Positions 4,403 through 26,552 of a DNA stretch of 64,000 bases are shown in pieces. The DNA is from Thalassobaculaceae bacterium. GTDB taxonomy: Bacteria; Pseudomonadota; Alphaproteobacteria; Thalassobaculales; Thalassobaculaceae. The stretch spans positions 30,586 to 94,585 of the forward strand of contig JARGOG010000001.1 in the NCBI GenBank assembly GCA_029212785.1, written 5' to 3'. The number at the start of each line of letters is the position of its first letter. Within the stretch, counting starts at the first letter, position 1. The position numbers and the translations under genes are program-made. The notes beneath the pieces were generated by a model, which saw only the letters and a program-made list of their open reading frames with translations, was not told where the DNA came from and searched no databases.

Positions 4403-4748
4403 AAACGGGCAGCCATTGCGTTGAGGGTTGAGGAGCCGGATCGCGCCTCGTCGGCGCGCCGGGTCGACCGGCCTTTCGGCGTGCCGCAGCCAGCGGATCC
4501 CAAGGGATTCGATGCCGCGTGGTTCTAGTACGCGCCTGCCTCCTGGAATTCAAGAAGCCCTAGTATGTGAAAATTCGGAACCGTTCCCTTGGTTCCGCGT
4601 TTCTTTGATGCGGAGGGGGTCCGACTACGCGGTCCAGAAAAACTCACAAGCGTCAGCGGAATAGAAGGGCCCTGCTTTCCGTCCTGCTTATGTCGAAACC
4701 AAGTGGCGAGGGGTAAGTCCGGTCGCCAGATTGAATGGAAGAGGTGTG
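4403..4748. other. Intergenic region metG to DUF3185 gene
   Basis: About 346 bases with no convincing gene. It contains an EcfG-type promoter at 4577-4601 reading toward the DUF3185 gene, leaving a leader of roughly 140 bases before the ATG at 4749. The metG promoter must also lie here but I cannot place it. Confidence 0.6.
4577..4601 (+). promoter_or_regulatory. EcfG-type general stress promoter
   Basis: GGAAC, 16 bases, then CGTT: an exact match to the alphaproteobacterial general-stress sigma (EcfG) consensus. It lies 148 bp upstream of the DUF3185 gene on the same strand. The same exact pattern precedes the ECF sigma gene and the hemerythrin gene in this window. The spacer is partly self-complementary to the -35 box (CGGAACC/GGTTCCG), probably by chance. 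Confidence 0.65.
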
Positions 4749-4955
4749 ATGATTTCGACACGTGTTGTTGGTCTTGCCGTTGCCGTGGTCGGTGGCGTGC
4801 TTCTGGCTCTGGGTCTGAGCGCGGCGGATGCCCCGGTCGCCGAGCTGAAGCACACGCTCACGGGGCAGTATTCGGACCGGACGATCCTGCAGATCGTCGG
4901 TGGGGCCGCAGCACTGGTCGTCGGATCGTTGGTGGCAATAAAAGCACGCCGCTGA
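4749..4955 (+). CDS. DUF3185-like small membrane protein
   Basis: A 68-residue protein with two hydrophobic segments (about residues 5-24 and 46-64) joined by a short polar loop. The loop LTGQYSDRTILQIVGGAAALVVG resembles the DUF3185 pattern (…FTG.PTDK.IW…GG…), a family of small inner-membrane proteins of unknown function. The ATG at 4749 is preceded by GGAAGAGGTG, a good ribosome site. The EcfG-type promoter upstream suggests it is stress-induced. Confidence 0.75.
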   Translation: MISTRVVGLAVAVVGGVLLALGLSAADAPVAELKHTLTGQYSDRTILQIVGGAAALVVGSLVAIKARR

Positions 4956-6018: not shown

Positions 6019-6142
6019 GTGTATGCGCTTTCCGGCGGATCGTGTCCTTTCTGTGGCACGCTGTGTCATCGCTGTGCATCGCTTGAATCAAACAGTCCGC
6101 CCAAATACATGACCTCCATCGCCACACGAAGGAGCGGTCGAC

Positions 6143-6431: not shown

Positions 6432-6932
6432 ATGCGCGTTTTCCTTGCCATCGCCTGTGTCTTGTTGTTGGCCGCCTGTGCCGGGCCGGCCGCTCGTCGG
6501 GCGGCACCGGTCGCAGCGGAGCCTGCGCCGCAGCCCGTGCAGAGCGTGGACGTTGATCCGATCCGACCGCCATTGCCCGAGCCGCGGCCCAAGCCGCCGA
6601 GCCGGCCCCTGGGTGCCGCTGCGGCCGGCCAGTCAGGATCGAAGCCCGCTCAACACAAGGATGTCTCCGGTGTCGACGTCGATGCTCTGGTCGGAGCGGA
6701 TCGACCGAGCCTCGTGGCGATACTGGGTCCGGCCGACGAGGTGCGCGATCAGCCGCCCGGCGAGGTCTGGATCTATCGGGAGGGCGGATGCTCGATCGAG
6801 CTCTATCTCTTCCCGCAGATCTCGGTGTCGCAATACGCCGTCTTGGGCCACAAGTTCCTGCCGTCCTCTCTCGGAGAAGAGGAGCGGACGACATGCTTAA
6901 CGAAGTTAGCTTCGAGGACACGTGCTTCGTAA
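6432..6932 (+). CDS. Putative lipoprotein with SmpA/OmlA-like C-terminal region
   Basis: The ATG at 6432 gives a textbook lipoprotein signal: MRVFLAIACVLLLAACAG, with lipobox LAAC and acylated Cys17. A Pro-rich linker (about residues 20-75) follows, then a compact domain (LVGADRPSLVAILGPADEVRDQ…WIYREGGCSIELYL) resembling SmpA/OmlA-type folds. It should sit on the periplasmic face of the envelope. Its last 40 bases overlap the start of the response-regulator gene, so the two are translationally coupled and it may be a sensor or target of that system. Confidence 0.75.
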   Translation: MRVFLAIACVLLLAACAGPAARRAAPVAAEPAPQPVQSVDVDPIRPPLPEPRPKPPSRPLGAAAAGQSGSKPAQHKDVSGVDVDALVGADRPSLVAILGPADEVRDQPPGEVWIYREGGCSIELYLFPQISVSQYAVLGHKFLPSSLGEEERTTCLTKLASRTRAS

Positions 6933-7687
6933 TGCCTCCTGGTCCTCCCGCCCGCGTTCTGATCGTCGACGACGACGCCCTTCTCCTTGAGACGCTGGCC
7001 ATCAATCTCGATGACAACGGCATCGAGACGGAGACGGCGGAGTCAGGAGAGGCGGCGATGCGCCGGCTGTCGGAGAACGCGAATTTCGACCTGGTGATCC
7101 TGGACTGGAAGATGCCGGGCATGTCCGGTCTCGACACGCTCAAAGCGATGAACGCCGCGGGTCTGGATCTGCCGGCGATCATTCTGACCAGTCTGACGGA
7201 CCAGATCTTTGAGGAGTCGGCTCTGGCGACCGGTGCCGTGGACTTTGTCGACAAGTCCCGCAGCTTCTCGATCGTGCTGCGTCGGGTGCAGATCATCCTT
7301 TCCGGCGTGCGCAGCCGGAGCAGCGCCGACGCTGACGCGGAACCGAGCGAAGCCGAAAAGGGCGACCAGTTGGTCATTGGCGCCCTGACCCTGGACCGCA
7401 AGGCGGGACGGGCCTTCTGGAACGACAAGCAGGTGCCGCTGACCCTGACCGAGTACCAGCTAGTCGACGAGCTGGCCTCGAAGCCGGGGCGCGATATCAA
7501 GTACCGCGACCTGTACAATCTGGTGCATGGCGAGAATTTCTTCGTCGGCACCGGCGGCGACGGCTACCGGGCGAATGTCCGCAGCTTCGTCAAGCGGATC
7601 CGCCAGAAGTTCAAGGACATGGACGGCGCGTTCGAGCAGATCGAGAATTACCCAGGGTTCGGGTACCGCTGGCGCGAGCCGGAATAG
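6893..7687 (+). CDS. OmpR-family response regulator
   Basis: A receiver domain (residues about 21-135) has acidic residues DDD at 26-28, phosphoacceptor D71 (VILDWKMPG), switch T99 and K121. A winged-helix DNA-binding domain (about 165-260) follows, with LTEYQLVDELASKPG and YPGFGYRW. The ATG at 6893 has a good ribosome site (AGAAGAGGAG), giving 264 residues. It overlaps the lipoprotein gene by 40 bp and is followed 7 bp later by its presumed histidine kinase, a single operon. The Asp-rich N-terminal extension before the receiver is slightly long. Confidence 0.93.
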   Translation: MLNEVSFEDTCFVMPPGPPARVLIVDDDALLLETLAINLDDNGIETETAESGEAAMRRLSENANFDLVILDWKMPGMSGLDTLKAMNAAGLDLPAIILTSLTDQIFEESALATGAVDFVDKSRSFSIVLRRVQIILSGVRSRSSADADAEPSEAEKGDQLVIGALTLDRKAGRAFWNDKQVPLTLTEYQLVDELASKPGRDIKYRDLYNLVHGENFFVGTGGDGYRANVRSFVKRIRQKFKDMDGAFEQIENYPGFGYRWREPE

Positions 7688-7694
7688 AGTGCCC

Positions 7695-9212
7695 ATGACC
7701 CAGGGTGCTCCGACATCGGCGCTCTCCCGCTATGCCCGGTCGATCGGCGCCAAGCTGCTGGTCGTGCTCGTCCTGTTCCTGATCGTGCCGGCCGTGCTCT
7801 ACGGCCGGTTCCAGGCGGCGGACGGGGATCGGCGGGCGTTCATGCTGGAAAGCGTCCGCAGCCACGGGTCCGCCATCGCCCAGGCCCTGGCCAACGACCT
7901 TGGCCGTCCGGACGCGGACGTGTTCTCCGAAGTTCCCGAGCGGCTGCAGCTGTTCGAGACCCCCGGCATGCGGCTGCGGCTCCTGTTCAGCCCGGCCGAC
8001 GAGAAAGACGTCTCCGATTTCTTCTATGTGGCGACGGCGCCGGCGTTCAGCATGGAGCAGCTCGAGTTGGAGCGCCGCCTGTTCCGCCAGACCGGACTGT
8101 TGAGCGATGTCTGGTCCTCATGCTCCGGCATGGTCGAACTGAGCCGGGTGACCGCCGCGCCGGAGGTCGGCCGCGAGCTTCTGGTCTCGATTACGCCGAT
8201 CCAGACCGCGCAGGGATGCTGGGCGCTCATCGCCTCCCTGGCCCTAGAGGATCAGGTGGCGGCGTCGCTGATCGAGCCGTACTGGCAGCGCCCGGAGGTG
8301 ATCGCCGCGGTGATCATCTATGTGGCGATGGCCTCCGTTCTCATCGTCGTGCTGCTGGACGTCCGCGGCGCGCTGCGGCGCTTCGAGCGCCATGCGCGCC
8401 GGATTGCCGCCGCCGGCAGCGGCGGGCGCTCGTTCCGCCGCCTCAACCGGGTGCCGGAGCTCGACGGGGTTGCCGGAGAATTCGATGCCATGGTCCAGCG
8501 CCTGCACGACGTGGCGGTCGATATCCGCGCATCGGCGGAGGAGCAGGTGCATGCGCTGAAGACGCCGATCGGCACCATCGCCCAGTCGATCGAGGCTTTA
8601 CGGCGCGCGGTGCCGCCGGACAATGCCCGCGCTCACCGCATGCTCGGGATCATCGACCAGTCGCGCCAGCGCCTGAGCAGCCTGATCGTCGCCGGCCAAC
8701 GCACCACGGAGGCGGCAGCCTTGTTGGCGTCGCCGCCGCGCGACCCGGTGCAGATCGACGAGCTGCTGCGGGGGCTCTGCGGCGATTTCGACGGCCCCTG
8801 CGAGGCTCGGGGCATCCACCTGCACGCCGAGATCATGGCATCGGCGGTGGTGCTCGGCAGCGACGAGATGCTGGAGGCGGTGTTCGAGAACGTGATCGAG
8901 AATGCGGTCGGCTTCTCGCCGAAAGGGGCGACGGTGTCCGTCCATCTGGAACGCGCCGGCCGCAACGTTCGGATCAGCGTGCGCGATTCCGGCCCGGGTG
9001 CGTCCGAGGACGTGCTCGCCAAGCTGTTCGAGAAGGGCTTCACCAGACGTCCGGCCTCCGCCGTGGACGAGGGCGGCGGCGGGCATTTCGGTCTCGGCAT
9101 GTGGATCGTCAGCCGGAATGTGGTGGCGCTGAACGGGTCGGTCTCCGCCCGGAACGCGGATCCATGCGGGCTGGAAGTGACCATTGTCCTGCCGATCGCA
9201 GAAAACGCCTGA
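7695..9212 (+). CDS. Membrane sensor histidine kinase
   Basis: 505 residues. TM1 is about 18-36, a periplasmic sensor region of about 160 residues follows, then TM2 about 201-223 and a HAMP-like linker. The dimerisation box reads EEQVHALKTPIGTIAQSIEA with H286 as likely phosphoacceptor; HALKTP is a less common variant of the H-E-x-[RK]-[TN]-P pattern. The ATPase domain shows the N box (FENVIENAVGFSP), G1 (DSGPG) and G2 (FGLGMWI). It follows the response regulator by 7 bp, so the two form a two-component pair. The stimulus is unknown; the cotranscribed lipoprotein suggests an envelope signal. Confidence 0.92.
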   Translation: MTQGAPTSALSRYARSIGAKLLVVLVLFLIVPAVLYGRFQAADGDRRAFMLESVRSHGSAIAQALANDLGRPDADVFSEVPERLQLFETPGMRLRLLFSPADEKDVSDFFYVATAPAFSMEQLELERRLFRQTGLLSDVWSSCSGMVELSRVTAAPEVGRELLVSITPIQTAQGCWALIASLALEDQVAASLIEPYWQRPEVIAAVIIYVAMASVLIVVLLDVRGALRRFERHARRIAAAGSGGRSFRRLNRVPELDGVAGEFDAMVQRLHDVAVDIRASAEEQVHALKTPIGTIAQSIEALRRAVPPDNARAHRMLGIIDQSRQRLSSLIVAGQRTTEAAALLASPPRDPVQIDELLRGLCGDFDGPCEARGIHLHAEIMASAVVLGSDEMLEAVFENVIENAVGFSPKGATVSVHLERAGRNVRISVRDSGPGASEDVLAKLFEKGFTRRPASAVDEGGGGHFGLGMWIVSRNVVALNGSVSARNADPCGLEVTIVLPIAENA

Positions 9213-9291
9213 GCTTCGGAATAACGGCGCGTGATGCGCGGTCATTATGTCAGCGGTCGAGAAAAAAGGCCGCGTCATTGCCCCGCCTCCC

Positions 9292-9317
9292 GCAGGGTCC
9301 GCTCCGGCGGACCCTGC
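9292..9317. repeat. Perfect hairpin, possible terminator
   Basis: GCAGGGTCCGC-TCCG-GCGGACCCTGC: 11 perfect pairs and a 4-base loop. There is no U-tract after it on the + strand. It may end the two-component operon or be a dispersed extragenic palindrome. Confidence 0.5.
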
Positions 9318-9439
9318 ACCCCTTCGGATGGGTGATCCGGTGCGGCGCCTCGGAGAACGGGTCCGTAGGGTAAATCGCCGTTAACCCACTAATCGCTTTT
9401 GCATCCCCATAGTTTTTTCCCGGTCGCCGGCCATGAGCC

Positions 9440-9464
9440 GGAACCTACGGCGCCCCACGACGTT
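9440..9464 (+). promoter_or_regulatory. EcfG-type general stress promoter
   Basis: GGAAC, 16 bases, CGTT, an exact consensus match, 130 bp upstream of the ECF sigma gene on the same strand. It would place that sigma factor under the general stress response, or reflect autoregulation if the sigma factor recognises the same sequence. Confidence 0.65.
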
Positions 9465-9593
9465 CACAGCTTGGGGTCGGTGCGGCGCATACTTGTCACA
9501 GCTCTGGCCCAGCAACGTCACAGCGGCATCGCTAAGTCTTGTTCTGACGACGGCGAAACAGCCGAACCCTTTTGAGGTTGTGGGAGCAGAGCA

Positions 9594-10106
9594 ATGACCA
9601 TCACTGAGATCCAGGTGAGAGAGCACTACAGCAGCGTCCAGCGCACCGCTCGCCGTCTGGTCGGAAACCGTGCCGACGCGGACGACATCGCCCAGGAAGC
9701 CTTGCTGCGGGCCATCGTGTATGTCCGCGACGGTCGCACGGTGGAGAACTGGCGGGGGTATCTGAACCGCATCGTGCGCAATGTGATCGCCGACGACTAT
9801 GCCCGGCGCAAGCGCCAGGGCCCGGTGGTCGATCTGGACGACGTCCAGGGCAGCCTCGGCGTGTTGCCGAACCAGTACCAGCGCCATCGGGTCCACGAGA
9901 TGCAGGACGCCATCAACGCACTGCCCGAGCAGCAGCACGATGTCGTGCAGATGATCGCGGTCGACGGCATGTCGTATCGCGCCGCCGCCGAACGCCTGGG
10001 CGTCCCGGTCGGTACCGTGATGTCGCGCCTGTATCGCGGTCGCGAAACCCTCAAGGTCCGGCTTGACGAAGCGCCGGCGAATGACAGGGCCGTCGCGGCC
10101 GCCTGA
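9594..10106 (+). CDS. ECF-type RNA polymerase sigma factor
   Basis: 170 residues with region 2 (LVGNRADADDIAQEALLRAI, then WRGYLNRIVRNVIADDYARR) and region 4 (INALPEQQHDVVQMIAVDGM, then AERLGVPVGTVMSRLYRGR). No extra C-terminal domain is present. There is no nepR or anti-sigma gene next to it, so its regulator is not apparent here. The start follows GGGAGCAGAGCA. The upstream promoter matches the EcfG consensus, so it is either part of the general stress regulon or itself an EcfG-like factor. Region 4 resembles EcfG proteins only in the common ECF way, so I leave the subfamily open. Confidence 0.9.
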   Translation: MTITEIQVREHYSSVQRTARRLVGNRADADDIAQEALLRAIVYVRDGRTVENWRGYLNRIVRNVIADDYARRKRQGPVVDLDDVQGSLGVLPNQYQRHRVHEMQDAINALPEQQHDVVQMIAVDGMSYRAAAERLGVPVGTVMSRLYRGRETLKVRLDEAPANDRAVAAA

Positions 10107-10252
10107 TCCGCGCATACCCGTTCAACGGAGCGGCGGGTTCCCCCATCTCCCCCCGCCGTTCCGACTTGGGCCCGCCGGTGCCGCTCCCCACGGCGCCGGC
10201 GGGTGTATCCCGGGTCGAGGATCCGGGCGTATCGCGATCGAAGGAGGGTGCG

Positions 10253-10681
10253 ATGAGAGCCAATTTCATGACCACGATCCTGTGTGCCGCCGTCATGGCG
10301 GGCGCGTCCCAGATCGTCGCCGTCGCGCAGACCACCGCCCGTGCCGAGGATGAGGTGACCGCGCCACCCCGGACCGACGCCCCGGCGGTCGAAGTCCGGC
10401 CGATGCAGAAGCCGACGGTCGACGCGGCGACCTCGGTCCGCAATCAGCGCCTGGTCGGCGCCAAGGTGATCTCGGTCGACGAGAAAGAAGCCGGAGAGGT
10501 TCGCAGGATCATCGAGGACGGCGGCACCCGGAAGGCCGTGATCGAGGTCGGTGGCATCTTTGGCATCGGAGAGATGCGGGTGGCGATTCCGCTGGCCGAC
10601 TTCACGCTCATGCCGGACGGCAAGGCCCGGGTCAGCCTGACCCAGGCCGAGATCAAGGACCTGCCTGAATTCAAGGGCTGA
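10253..10681 (+). CDS. Exported PRC-barrel domain protein
   Basis: 142 residues. An N-terminal signal peptide (MRANFMTTILCAAVMAGASQ…, about 30 residues) is followed by an acidic Pro-rich stretch and a PRC-barrel domain: LVGAKVISVDEKEAGEVRRI, then VGGIFGIGEMRVAIPLADF. The ATG follows GAAGGAGGGTGCG, an excellent ribosome site. It lies 146 bp after the ECF sigma gene on the same strand, before a strong terminator. Exported PRC-barrel proteins of this type are common in Rhizobiales and Rhodospirillales; their role is unclear. Coexpression with the sigma factor is likely. Confidence 0.85.
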   Translation: MRANFMTTILCAAVMAGASQIVAVAQTTARAEDEVTAPPRTDAPAVEVRPMQKPTVDAATSVRNQRLVGAKVISVDEKEAGEVRRIIEDGGTRKAVIEVGGIFGIGEMRVAIPLADFTLMPDGKARVSLTQAEIKDLPEFKG

Positions 10682-15497: not shown

Positions 15498-16252
15498 GCG
15501 GCAGGCCGGGTATTGTCGACAGCGTGACGCAGGGCCGCATCGGCCAGCAGGCGAGTGGAGTCGAGCGTCGGCAGGGACGAATTGTCGTCGCGCAGCACAA
15601 GCGGCAGCTCGGTACAGCCGAGGATGACGGCATCGCATCCCCGGTCATTCATCCCCGCGATCAGGTCCTGGAGATAGGCGGTGGAACCGGCGACCTGTAT
15701 GCCGTTCACCAGCTCGTCCATGATGATCCGCGCCACGTCATCCTTTTCGGCGTCTTCCGGGCGCAGGAATCCGATACCTCTGGCGGCCAGGGCGTCGGGA
15801 TAGACGGCACTGTCGGTCAGCCAGCGGGTTCCCAGGATCGCCGCCCGCCGCACGCCCCGGCGCTGCGCCTCTTCGGCCACGACCTCCGCGATATGGAGCC
15901 AGGGCAGGGGCGAATGGGGGCGGACATGGTCCATGGCGGCATGGATGGTGTTGTCCGGACAGATCAGGAAATCCGCACCGGCCGCCGCGAGCCTTTCGGC
16001 CGACCGCAGCATGATTGCGCCGACCCCGGCGAGATCGCCGGCCTCCAGCGCCGCCACGTATCGCGCCAGCGAGGCCCCGTGCAGGGCGATCTCCGGATGG
16101 GCGTGCGATCCCAGGATGGCGGGTGCCCGGGAACAGATCGTCCGATAGCACAGGGCCGCTCCCTCCGAGGAGCAGGCGACGATCCCGATGGTCAACGGGG
16201 TGCGATGGCGATCTGCCGTGGCGGTGTGTGCGGCGGGACTGGAACGGGTCAT
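15494..16252 (-). CDS. Aspartate/glutamate-type racemase family protein
   Basis: 252 residues with the two catalytic Cys of the Asp/Glu racemase fold: FLICPDNTIH and VILGCTELPLVL, each in its expected context. A third Cys lies in the N-terminal GIVACSSEGA motif. It is PLP-independent. Family members interconvert D- and L-aspartate or glutamate, and related proteins racemise hydantoins or isomerise maleate; the TNT/TEL motifs favour amino-acid racemase. The ATG at 16252 is preferred over a GTG at 16261. It converges on the LysR gene with overlapping stop codons. It may supply or remove D-amino acids for the carbamoylase and hydantoinase genes elsewhere in the window, but this is inference. Confidence 0.88.
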   Translation of the reverse strand: MTRSSPAAHTATADRHRTPLTIGIVACSSEGAALCYRTICSRAPAILGSHAHPEIALHGASLARYVAALEAGDLAGVGAIMLRSAERLAAAGADFLICPDNTIHAAMDHVRPHSPLPWLHIAEVVAEEAQRRGVRRAAILGTRWLTDSAVYPDALAARGIGFLRPEDAEKDDVARIIMDELVNGIQVAGSTAYLQDLIAGMNDRGCDAVILGCTELPLVLRDDNSSLPTLDSTRLLADAALRHAVDNTRPAA

Positions 16253-26527: not shown

Positions 26528-26552
26528 GGAACCGTTCGACCCCTACGTCGTT
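26528..26552 (+). promoter_or_regulatory. EcfG-type general stress promoter
   Basis: GGAAC, 16 bases, CGTT: exact consensus, on the same strand and 78 bp before the hemerythrin ATG. It is the third perfect match in this window. Confidence 0.7.

Follow-up and report, generated by a model that had tools for sequence, protein, structure and literature searches.

The window analysed here is a stretch of 64,000 nucleotides and forms part of the 4.92-Mb genome of a marine bacterium, in 154 contigs (G000). It carries an ECF sigma gene directly behind the genes of a predicted lipoprotein, a response regulator and a sensor kinase, together with the following features.

4577–4601, + strand: second predicted EcfG-type promoter, ahead of a 68-aa ORF and an OmpA-family gene, with counterparts at the same position in G002 and G003
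6051–6079, + strand: repeats CTGTGGCACG CTGTGTCATCG CTGTGCAT ahead of the regulator operon (tandem-match score)
6432–6932, + strand: predicted lipoprotein, encoded first in the regulator operon (lipobox LAAC, by eye)
6932–7687, + strand: OmpR/PhoB-type response regulator (Response_reg, Trans_reg_C)
7695–9212, + strand: membrane sensor histidine kinase (HATPase_c; scanned from 7701, two codons past the ATG)
9292–9317, + strand: hairpin after the kinase gene, a possible operon end (fold z-score, conservation)
9440–9464, + strand: P1, EcfG-type promoter GGAAC-N16-CGTT (exact match, conservation)
9493–9524, no strand assigned: conserved element with a pair of CTGTGAC/GTCACAG boxes at 22-bp spacing, a putative response-regulator site (conservation, box-pair tests)
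9532–9540, + strand: CTAAGTCTT, possible −10 of a second promoter (conservation, look-alikes)
9594–10106, + strand: ECF sigma factor of 170 aa (Pfam regions 2 and 4, tree)
10253–10681, + strand: exported PRC-barrel protein (Pfam PRC)

The gene order OmpA–lipoprotein–regulator–kinase–sigma–ABC–LysR is conserved in three further Thalassobaculum genomes (G002, G003 and G004). The 68-aa ORF ahead of OmpA has no match in G004; a Pfam search with its product (ORF at 4751) gave no match either, and the name DUF3185, first considered for it, was dropped for that reason. The sigma factor has no match in G001 and G005, which are also listed in the genus. These are one-contig assemblies of 1.5 Mb with 99% completeness, and both are without the sigma factor and the regulator.

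Family and neighbours of the sigma factor

The product of the 9594 gene matches Sigma70_r2 and Sigma70_r4_2 above the Pfam cut-offs, and it passes the general sigma70-ECF model of NCBIfam. Among the 25 NCBIfam rows listed, no specific family lies above its cut-off (PRK12511, 94.1 versus 185), and we assigned no ECF group number. Among solved structures, SigH and SigE chains are the closest to it; 5uxx, which we take to be an ECF15 (EcfG) sigma factor, is only seventh of 20. In a tree of 26 rows, from which one empty row had been removed beforehand and in which several outer rows are long-branched, six sigma rows and six EcfG rows form two separate groups, the EcfG label resting on similarity to 5uxx and on linkage to PhyR. 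Fork supports are 100/98 and 98/95, and each set stays together in every one of 200 bootstrap trees (100%). By its sequence, the sigma factor at 9594 is thus placed in a small clade outside the EcfG group. The sequence-only reading had proposed a family classification of the sigma factor and had offered an autoregulated EcfG paralog as one outcome; the classification returned no EcfG membership, and we abandoned the paralog on the separate tree groups, the SigH and SigE relatives and a better EcfG candidate on another contig, C148, where PhyR is also encoded.

That reading had also described a sigma gene without a nepR or anti-sigma neighbour, and this description holds. No anti-sigma gene lies beside it, the gaps being too small for one of the usual size in the four aligned genus members, and neither nepR nor phyR was found adjoining it. 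The gene that follows was correctly described as encoding an exported PRC-barrel protein, with a PRC match barely above the cut-off (22.9 versus 21.2 bits) and an N-terminus that resembles a signal peptide by eye. Matches to this gene occur in G002 and G003 and not in G004, and its promoter region has no clear element in common with that of the sigma gene. The PRC-barrel protein was considered as an anti-sigma factor and is unlikely to be one; it looks exported, and its match is absent from G004, where the sigma factor persists.

Gene neighbours were listed for eight wider sigma loci. The gene directly 3′ of the sigma gene weakly matches an anti-sigma model in L106, L107 and L110 (21.9–34.4 bits, cut-off 100); L110 also passes zf-HC2, which L138 narrowly misses. 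In L108, the gene that follows looks similar but has no match, no such gene stands at that place in L109, and by eye no anti-sigma-like gene follows in L104 (G026) and L105 (G007). That the clade lost an ancestral anti-sigma factor is a guess.

The EcfG-type promoter and the general stress regulators

P1 has the sequence GGAACCTACGGCGCCCCACGACGTT, with 16 bases between GGAAC and CGTT, and lies about 130 bp ahead of the sigma-gene ATG. The exact match to a general-stress promoter claimed for this position is therefore confirmed, its elements being kept in G000, G002 and G003. Across the whole window, the pattern with spacers of 15–18 occurs four times against 1.63 expected, and nine of 100 shuffles reach four. 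This count is unremarkable; the place and the conservation of P1 are remarkable. In the alignment of G000, G002 and G003, all six −35 columns and all four −10 columns are invariant, and only five of 15 spacer columns are. A functionless chance match would agree with a window count about equal to that in some shuffles, but it is very improbable given a position that is kept while the spacer has diverged in three genomes, and that is broken in G004, in which EcfG and PhyR were not detected (E ≤ 1e-15 and E ≤ 1e-10, respectively; both are found in the other three genomes). We count the loss of P1, EcfG and PhyR in G004, an assembly rated 97% complete, as one event.

At the genome scale, GGAAC-N16/17-CGTT occurs 96 times in G000 versus 41 for the pattern read backwards. 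The stricter GGAACC-N15/16-CGTT exceeds its reversed control in the other Thalassobaculum genomes (49 versus 7 in G002, 53 versus 8 in G003 and 21 versus 11 in G004) and in two genomes of a sister genus (26 versus 8 in G018 and 31 versus 8 in G026), and shows no excess in G007 of that genus (40 versus 39). We consider it likely that P1 is an EcfG-dependent promoter. The further matches in the window differ in character. Besides the one at 4577, a match at 26528–26552 lies ahead of a hemerythrin-domain gene; similar sites stand on that side of the sigma gene in G002 and G003 too. The match at 15683 is probably due to chance, because it has a 15-base spacer and lies within a predicted gene of the opposite strand.

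The search for nepR and phyR that the sequence-only reading had suggested led to contig C148. A sigma factor encoded there has 5uxx as its best match and is thus a better EcfG candidate than the 9594 product, and PhyR lies about 6.4 kb from it (PRK09191, 143.5 bits, cut-off 240). Searching the genome with the Pfam NepR model returned nothing, and the only NepR-like match is weak (19.6 bits, cut-off 100) and also on C148. It belongs to a 91-aa product (L019:2524–2799) with an EcfG-type promoter match just upstream, and this product is possibly the divergent NepR of the genome. Adjoining PhyR, on the − strand (L019:13080–15788), is a phytochrome (PAS_2, GAF, PHY) that also carries an HWE kinase and a receiver domain, which suggests that the general stress response receives a light signal. 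Another PhyR-like match, with 33% identity, occurs in G003 (C1:488498–489208) and G002 (C17:32535–33146), with GGAACC...CGTT less than 200 bp away in both. The proposal that the 9594 product acts as a secondary sigma factor in a cascade gains support, as the EcfG-type promoter is kept where EcfG and PhyR are found and broken where they are not.

The conserved box pair and its distribution

The element at 9493–9524 and the linked two-component system were overlooked in the earlier reading. Over four genomes, 30 of its 32 columns are invariant, compared with nine of 110 in 9330–9439 and 164 of 381 overall. Within it, two CACAG/CTGTG boxes stand at a distance of 22 bp and flank a weaker repeat. 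Downstream, eight of nine columns are invariant at 9533–9541, one base to the right of CTAAGTCTT, and by eye G007 and G026 each show a look-alike of CTAAGTCTT at an equal distance; a scan of 9150–10300 found no standard sigma-70 promoter. A −10 follows pho boxes, and CTAAGTCTT, placed likewise after the pair, is possibly the −10 of a second promoter.

The box was written as YTGTGWYA after these promoters had been seen, so the counts that follow measure consistency and are not a blind test. A pair at 22 bp with up to two mismatches gave 12 matches in nine sequences (189 kb); every one lies at a sigma promoter or at the regulator-operon promoter of the window, and three of the 12 overlap in one G004 stretch. 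Shuffles of four of the sequences, 15 each, gave none or one, and other spacings from 15 to 32 gave 0–4 matches in the same nine sequences. Among 19 further loci (242 kb), there were three pair matches; that in L020 is the regulator-operon site of the window again, and those in L205 and L210 look like background. Near four more distant regulator homologs (L205–L208), the pair was not found except for the one match in L205, which has two mismatches. In a clustering test, YTGTGWYA gave nothing notable in the window or in G002–G004, and the unit TTGWCACAG was in excess only in G007 (nine matches, shuffles up to five) and not in G018, G026 or the window context. Genome-wide, the tandem 11-bp pattern shows no clear excess (23 versus 38 in G000, 42 versus 39 in G002, 51 versus 39 in G003 and 22 versus 33 in G004). 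At L209:13792, CTGTGTCAAATGACACAATGG forms two opposed boxes about 250 bp ahead of the G003 EcfG gene; the corresponding place in G000 and G002 has no YTGTGWYA match.

Related boxes also precede the regulator operon. Its lipoprotein has no Pfam or NCBIfam match, and its regulator scores 89.3 bits with the CseB model (cut-off 350), which places it outside the CseB family. The hairpin at 9292–9317 has a fold z-score of −3.25 (for 9268–9335) and 21 of 26 invariant columns; it has no T run, a terminator scan found nothing, and it may terminate the operon. In 17-kb contexts, the best tandem match outside the sigma promoter lies ahead of the regulator operon in G000 (score 21), G002 (21) and G003 (20), compared with 24 at the sigma site and at most 20 in 30 shuffles of the window context; the G003 score, taken alone, is within chance. 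The repeats in G002 and G003 fail the test for the 22-bp pair, and only single boxes pass; the upstream region in G004 has no tandem or box match. Outside the genus, scores near regulator homologs are 17–20, the highest about 530 bp ahead of the G049 regulator (L156), and the top of 100 shuffles is 19. The sharing of the box pair between the sigma and regulator promoters is observed by sequence and bears on putative regulator binding; the neighbouring regulator would bind at 9493–9524 and drive the sigma gene.

In the sister genus, G007, G018 and G026 encode the orthologous regulator (55–57% identity) and kinase, followed by an EcfG-like sigma factor. The region with the sigma gene and a short ORF behind it is L202 7697–8694 in G026, L203 7160–8160 in G018 and L204 8407–9428 in G007. 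PhyR was not found in these genomes, apart from a single match in G007 that covers the receiver only and has a stop codon. The kinase–sigma gap carries CTGTGTCAT-type boxes and the 22-bp pair. YTGTGWYA matches just three times in 16 kb in G018 and in G026, each time within this gap, a cluster that none of 100 shuffles has; in G007, two of the three matches lie there (six of 100 shuffles). The short ORF behind the EcfG-like sigma gene has GGAACC...CGTT upstream in all three genomes; its G007 product has a weak anti-sigmaE match (20.7 bits, cut-off 225). The 22-bp pair, with two mismatches, also precedes a sister-genus sigma gene that is unlinked to the regulator.

This last site is explained equally well by the main rival to regulator binding, autoregulation by the sigma factor. 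Here, 9493–9524 would be the sigma factor's own promoter (−35 TGTCACA and −10 CGTC, 15 bases apart), and EcfG would prime the loop. The spacing is kept in the four Thalassobaculum genomes, TGACACA and GTC recur at the kept spacing ahead of the unlinked sister-genus sigma gene in G007 and G026, and TGTCAC-N15-18-CGTC outnumbers its reversed control in each genome (33 versus 10 in G000, 27 versus 13 in G002, 30 versus 12 in G003 and 37 versus 10 in G004). The element is also near the ECF41 signature TGTCACA-n16-CGTC as given in the accessible part of PMC3426412. However, the bases between the two halves are conserved in the genus as well, unlike the P1 spacer; CTGTGTCA-type boxes, again 22 bp apart, lie ahead of another sigma gene, an EcfG-like one beside the regulator; and the 170-aa sigma factor has no ECF41-type extension. 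On balance, autoregulation appears unlikely.

Alternatively, a different regulator of the OmpR type, for instance a homolog of CenR, ChvI or PhoB, could bind the box pair. The position of the −10, about one turn past direct repeats, resembles the arrangement at pho boxes. The TCAC core is also present in the Sinorhizobium meliloti CenR sites (AGTCAC...GTGACT) in the available portion of PMC9561847. The same source describes those sites as close inverted repeats and not as a direct pair at 22 bp, and the boxes go with the regulator–kinase operon in two genera. We consider binding by such a regulator improbable, and the neighbouring regulator remains our preferred binder.

Proposed control of the sigma gene and related systems

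Sigma activity is probably governed by the amount of protein made, and transcription would be its main control because there is no adjacent anti-sigma gene. EcfG would start transcription at P1 during the PhyR-controlled general stress response, and an EcfG-driven P1 would thus make the 9594 product a second-tier sigma factor in a cascade. The lipoprotein, kinase and OmpR-type regulator would act through the boxes at 9493–9524, most likely by activating, rather than repressing, a second promoter with its predicted −10 near 9532–9540. With its predicted start upstream, the P1 transcript would have a leader that spans the box pair. The regulator may also control itself, as suggested by the related boxes ahead of its own operon. 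We estimate the probability of this joint model, with EcfG through P1 and the neighbouring regulator through the box pair both feeding the sigma gene, at about 0.48.

The EcfG arm of the joint model has described counterparts. In Caulobacter crescentus, SigT controls sigU, with a SigT motif ahead of sigU, and in Sphingomonas melonis, EcfG1 controls ecfG2; the second sigma factors do not bind NepR, and mild amplification has been proposed for SigU (PMC3073932, PMC4814048, each in its available part). The likeness is EcfG-type control over a second ECF sigma gene, and the 9594 gene has the EcfG-type promoter expected of a SigU-like cascade target. However, SigU and EcfG2 are EcfG paralogs, whereas the 9594 product stands outside the EcfG group and its gene has a second conserved control element.

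The regulator arm resembles that of Streptomyces coelicolor SigE, an ECF sigma factor without an anti-sigma factor under the CseBC two-component system and the lipoprotein CseA, as described in the accessible part of PMC8999054. Here too, there is no adjacent anti-sigma gene, and a lipoprotein (lipobox by eye) and a two-component system are linked to the sigma gene, the arrangement of SigE/CseABC-type control. The two differ in that the regulator is not CseB by the model and in that the regulator genes precede the sigma gene; furthermore, the same part of that source describes no counterpart of the EcfG input for SigE/CseABC. The ECF41 sigma factors also lack an anti-sigma factor, and the element ahead of the 9594 gene is one base off their promoter signature (15 versus 16 bases; PMC3426412, in part). 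Their fused C-terminal domain is absent from the 9594 product, in which Pfam regions 2 and 4 alone are above the cut-off.

Among the papers searched, mostly non-subscription, none on this locus was found, and the accessible text of PMC12016528 contains nothing on this system. In the same kind of literature, EcfG, PhyR and OmpR appear together only for Brucella envelope stress. Dual wiring by a general stress regulator and a sensor pair appears uncommon, but not unheard of.

A wider reading, which we hold only tentatively, is that the lipoprotein, regulator and kinase form a portable module that drives ECF sigma genes through the 22-bp pair. The module would act on an EcfG-like sigma factor in the sister genomes in which PhyR was not found and would have been re-aimed in Thalassobaculum at a non-EcfG sigma factor fed by EcfG. 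If so, the sister genomes would be able to reach EcfG-type promoters without passing through the PhyR–NepR partner switch. The comparison points to alphaproteobacteria with an EcfG-like sigma factor beside an OmpR-type system in which no PhyR is found. The short list of sites is directly testable in T. litoreum DSM 18839, which is in culture. If the joint model is true, an ECF sigma factor without an anti-sigma partner could be controlled by transcription alone, and signals from general stress and from a specific sensor would meet in one short promoter region.
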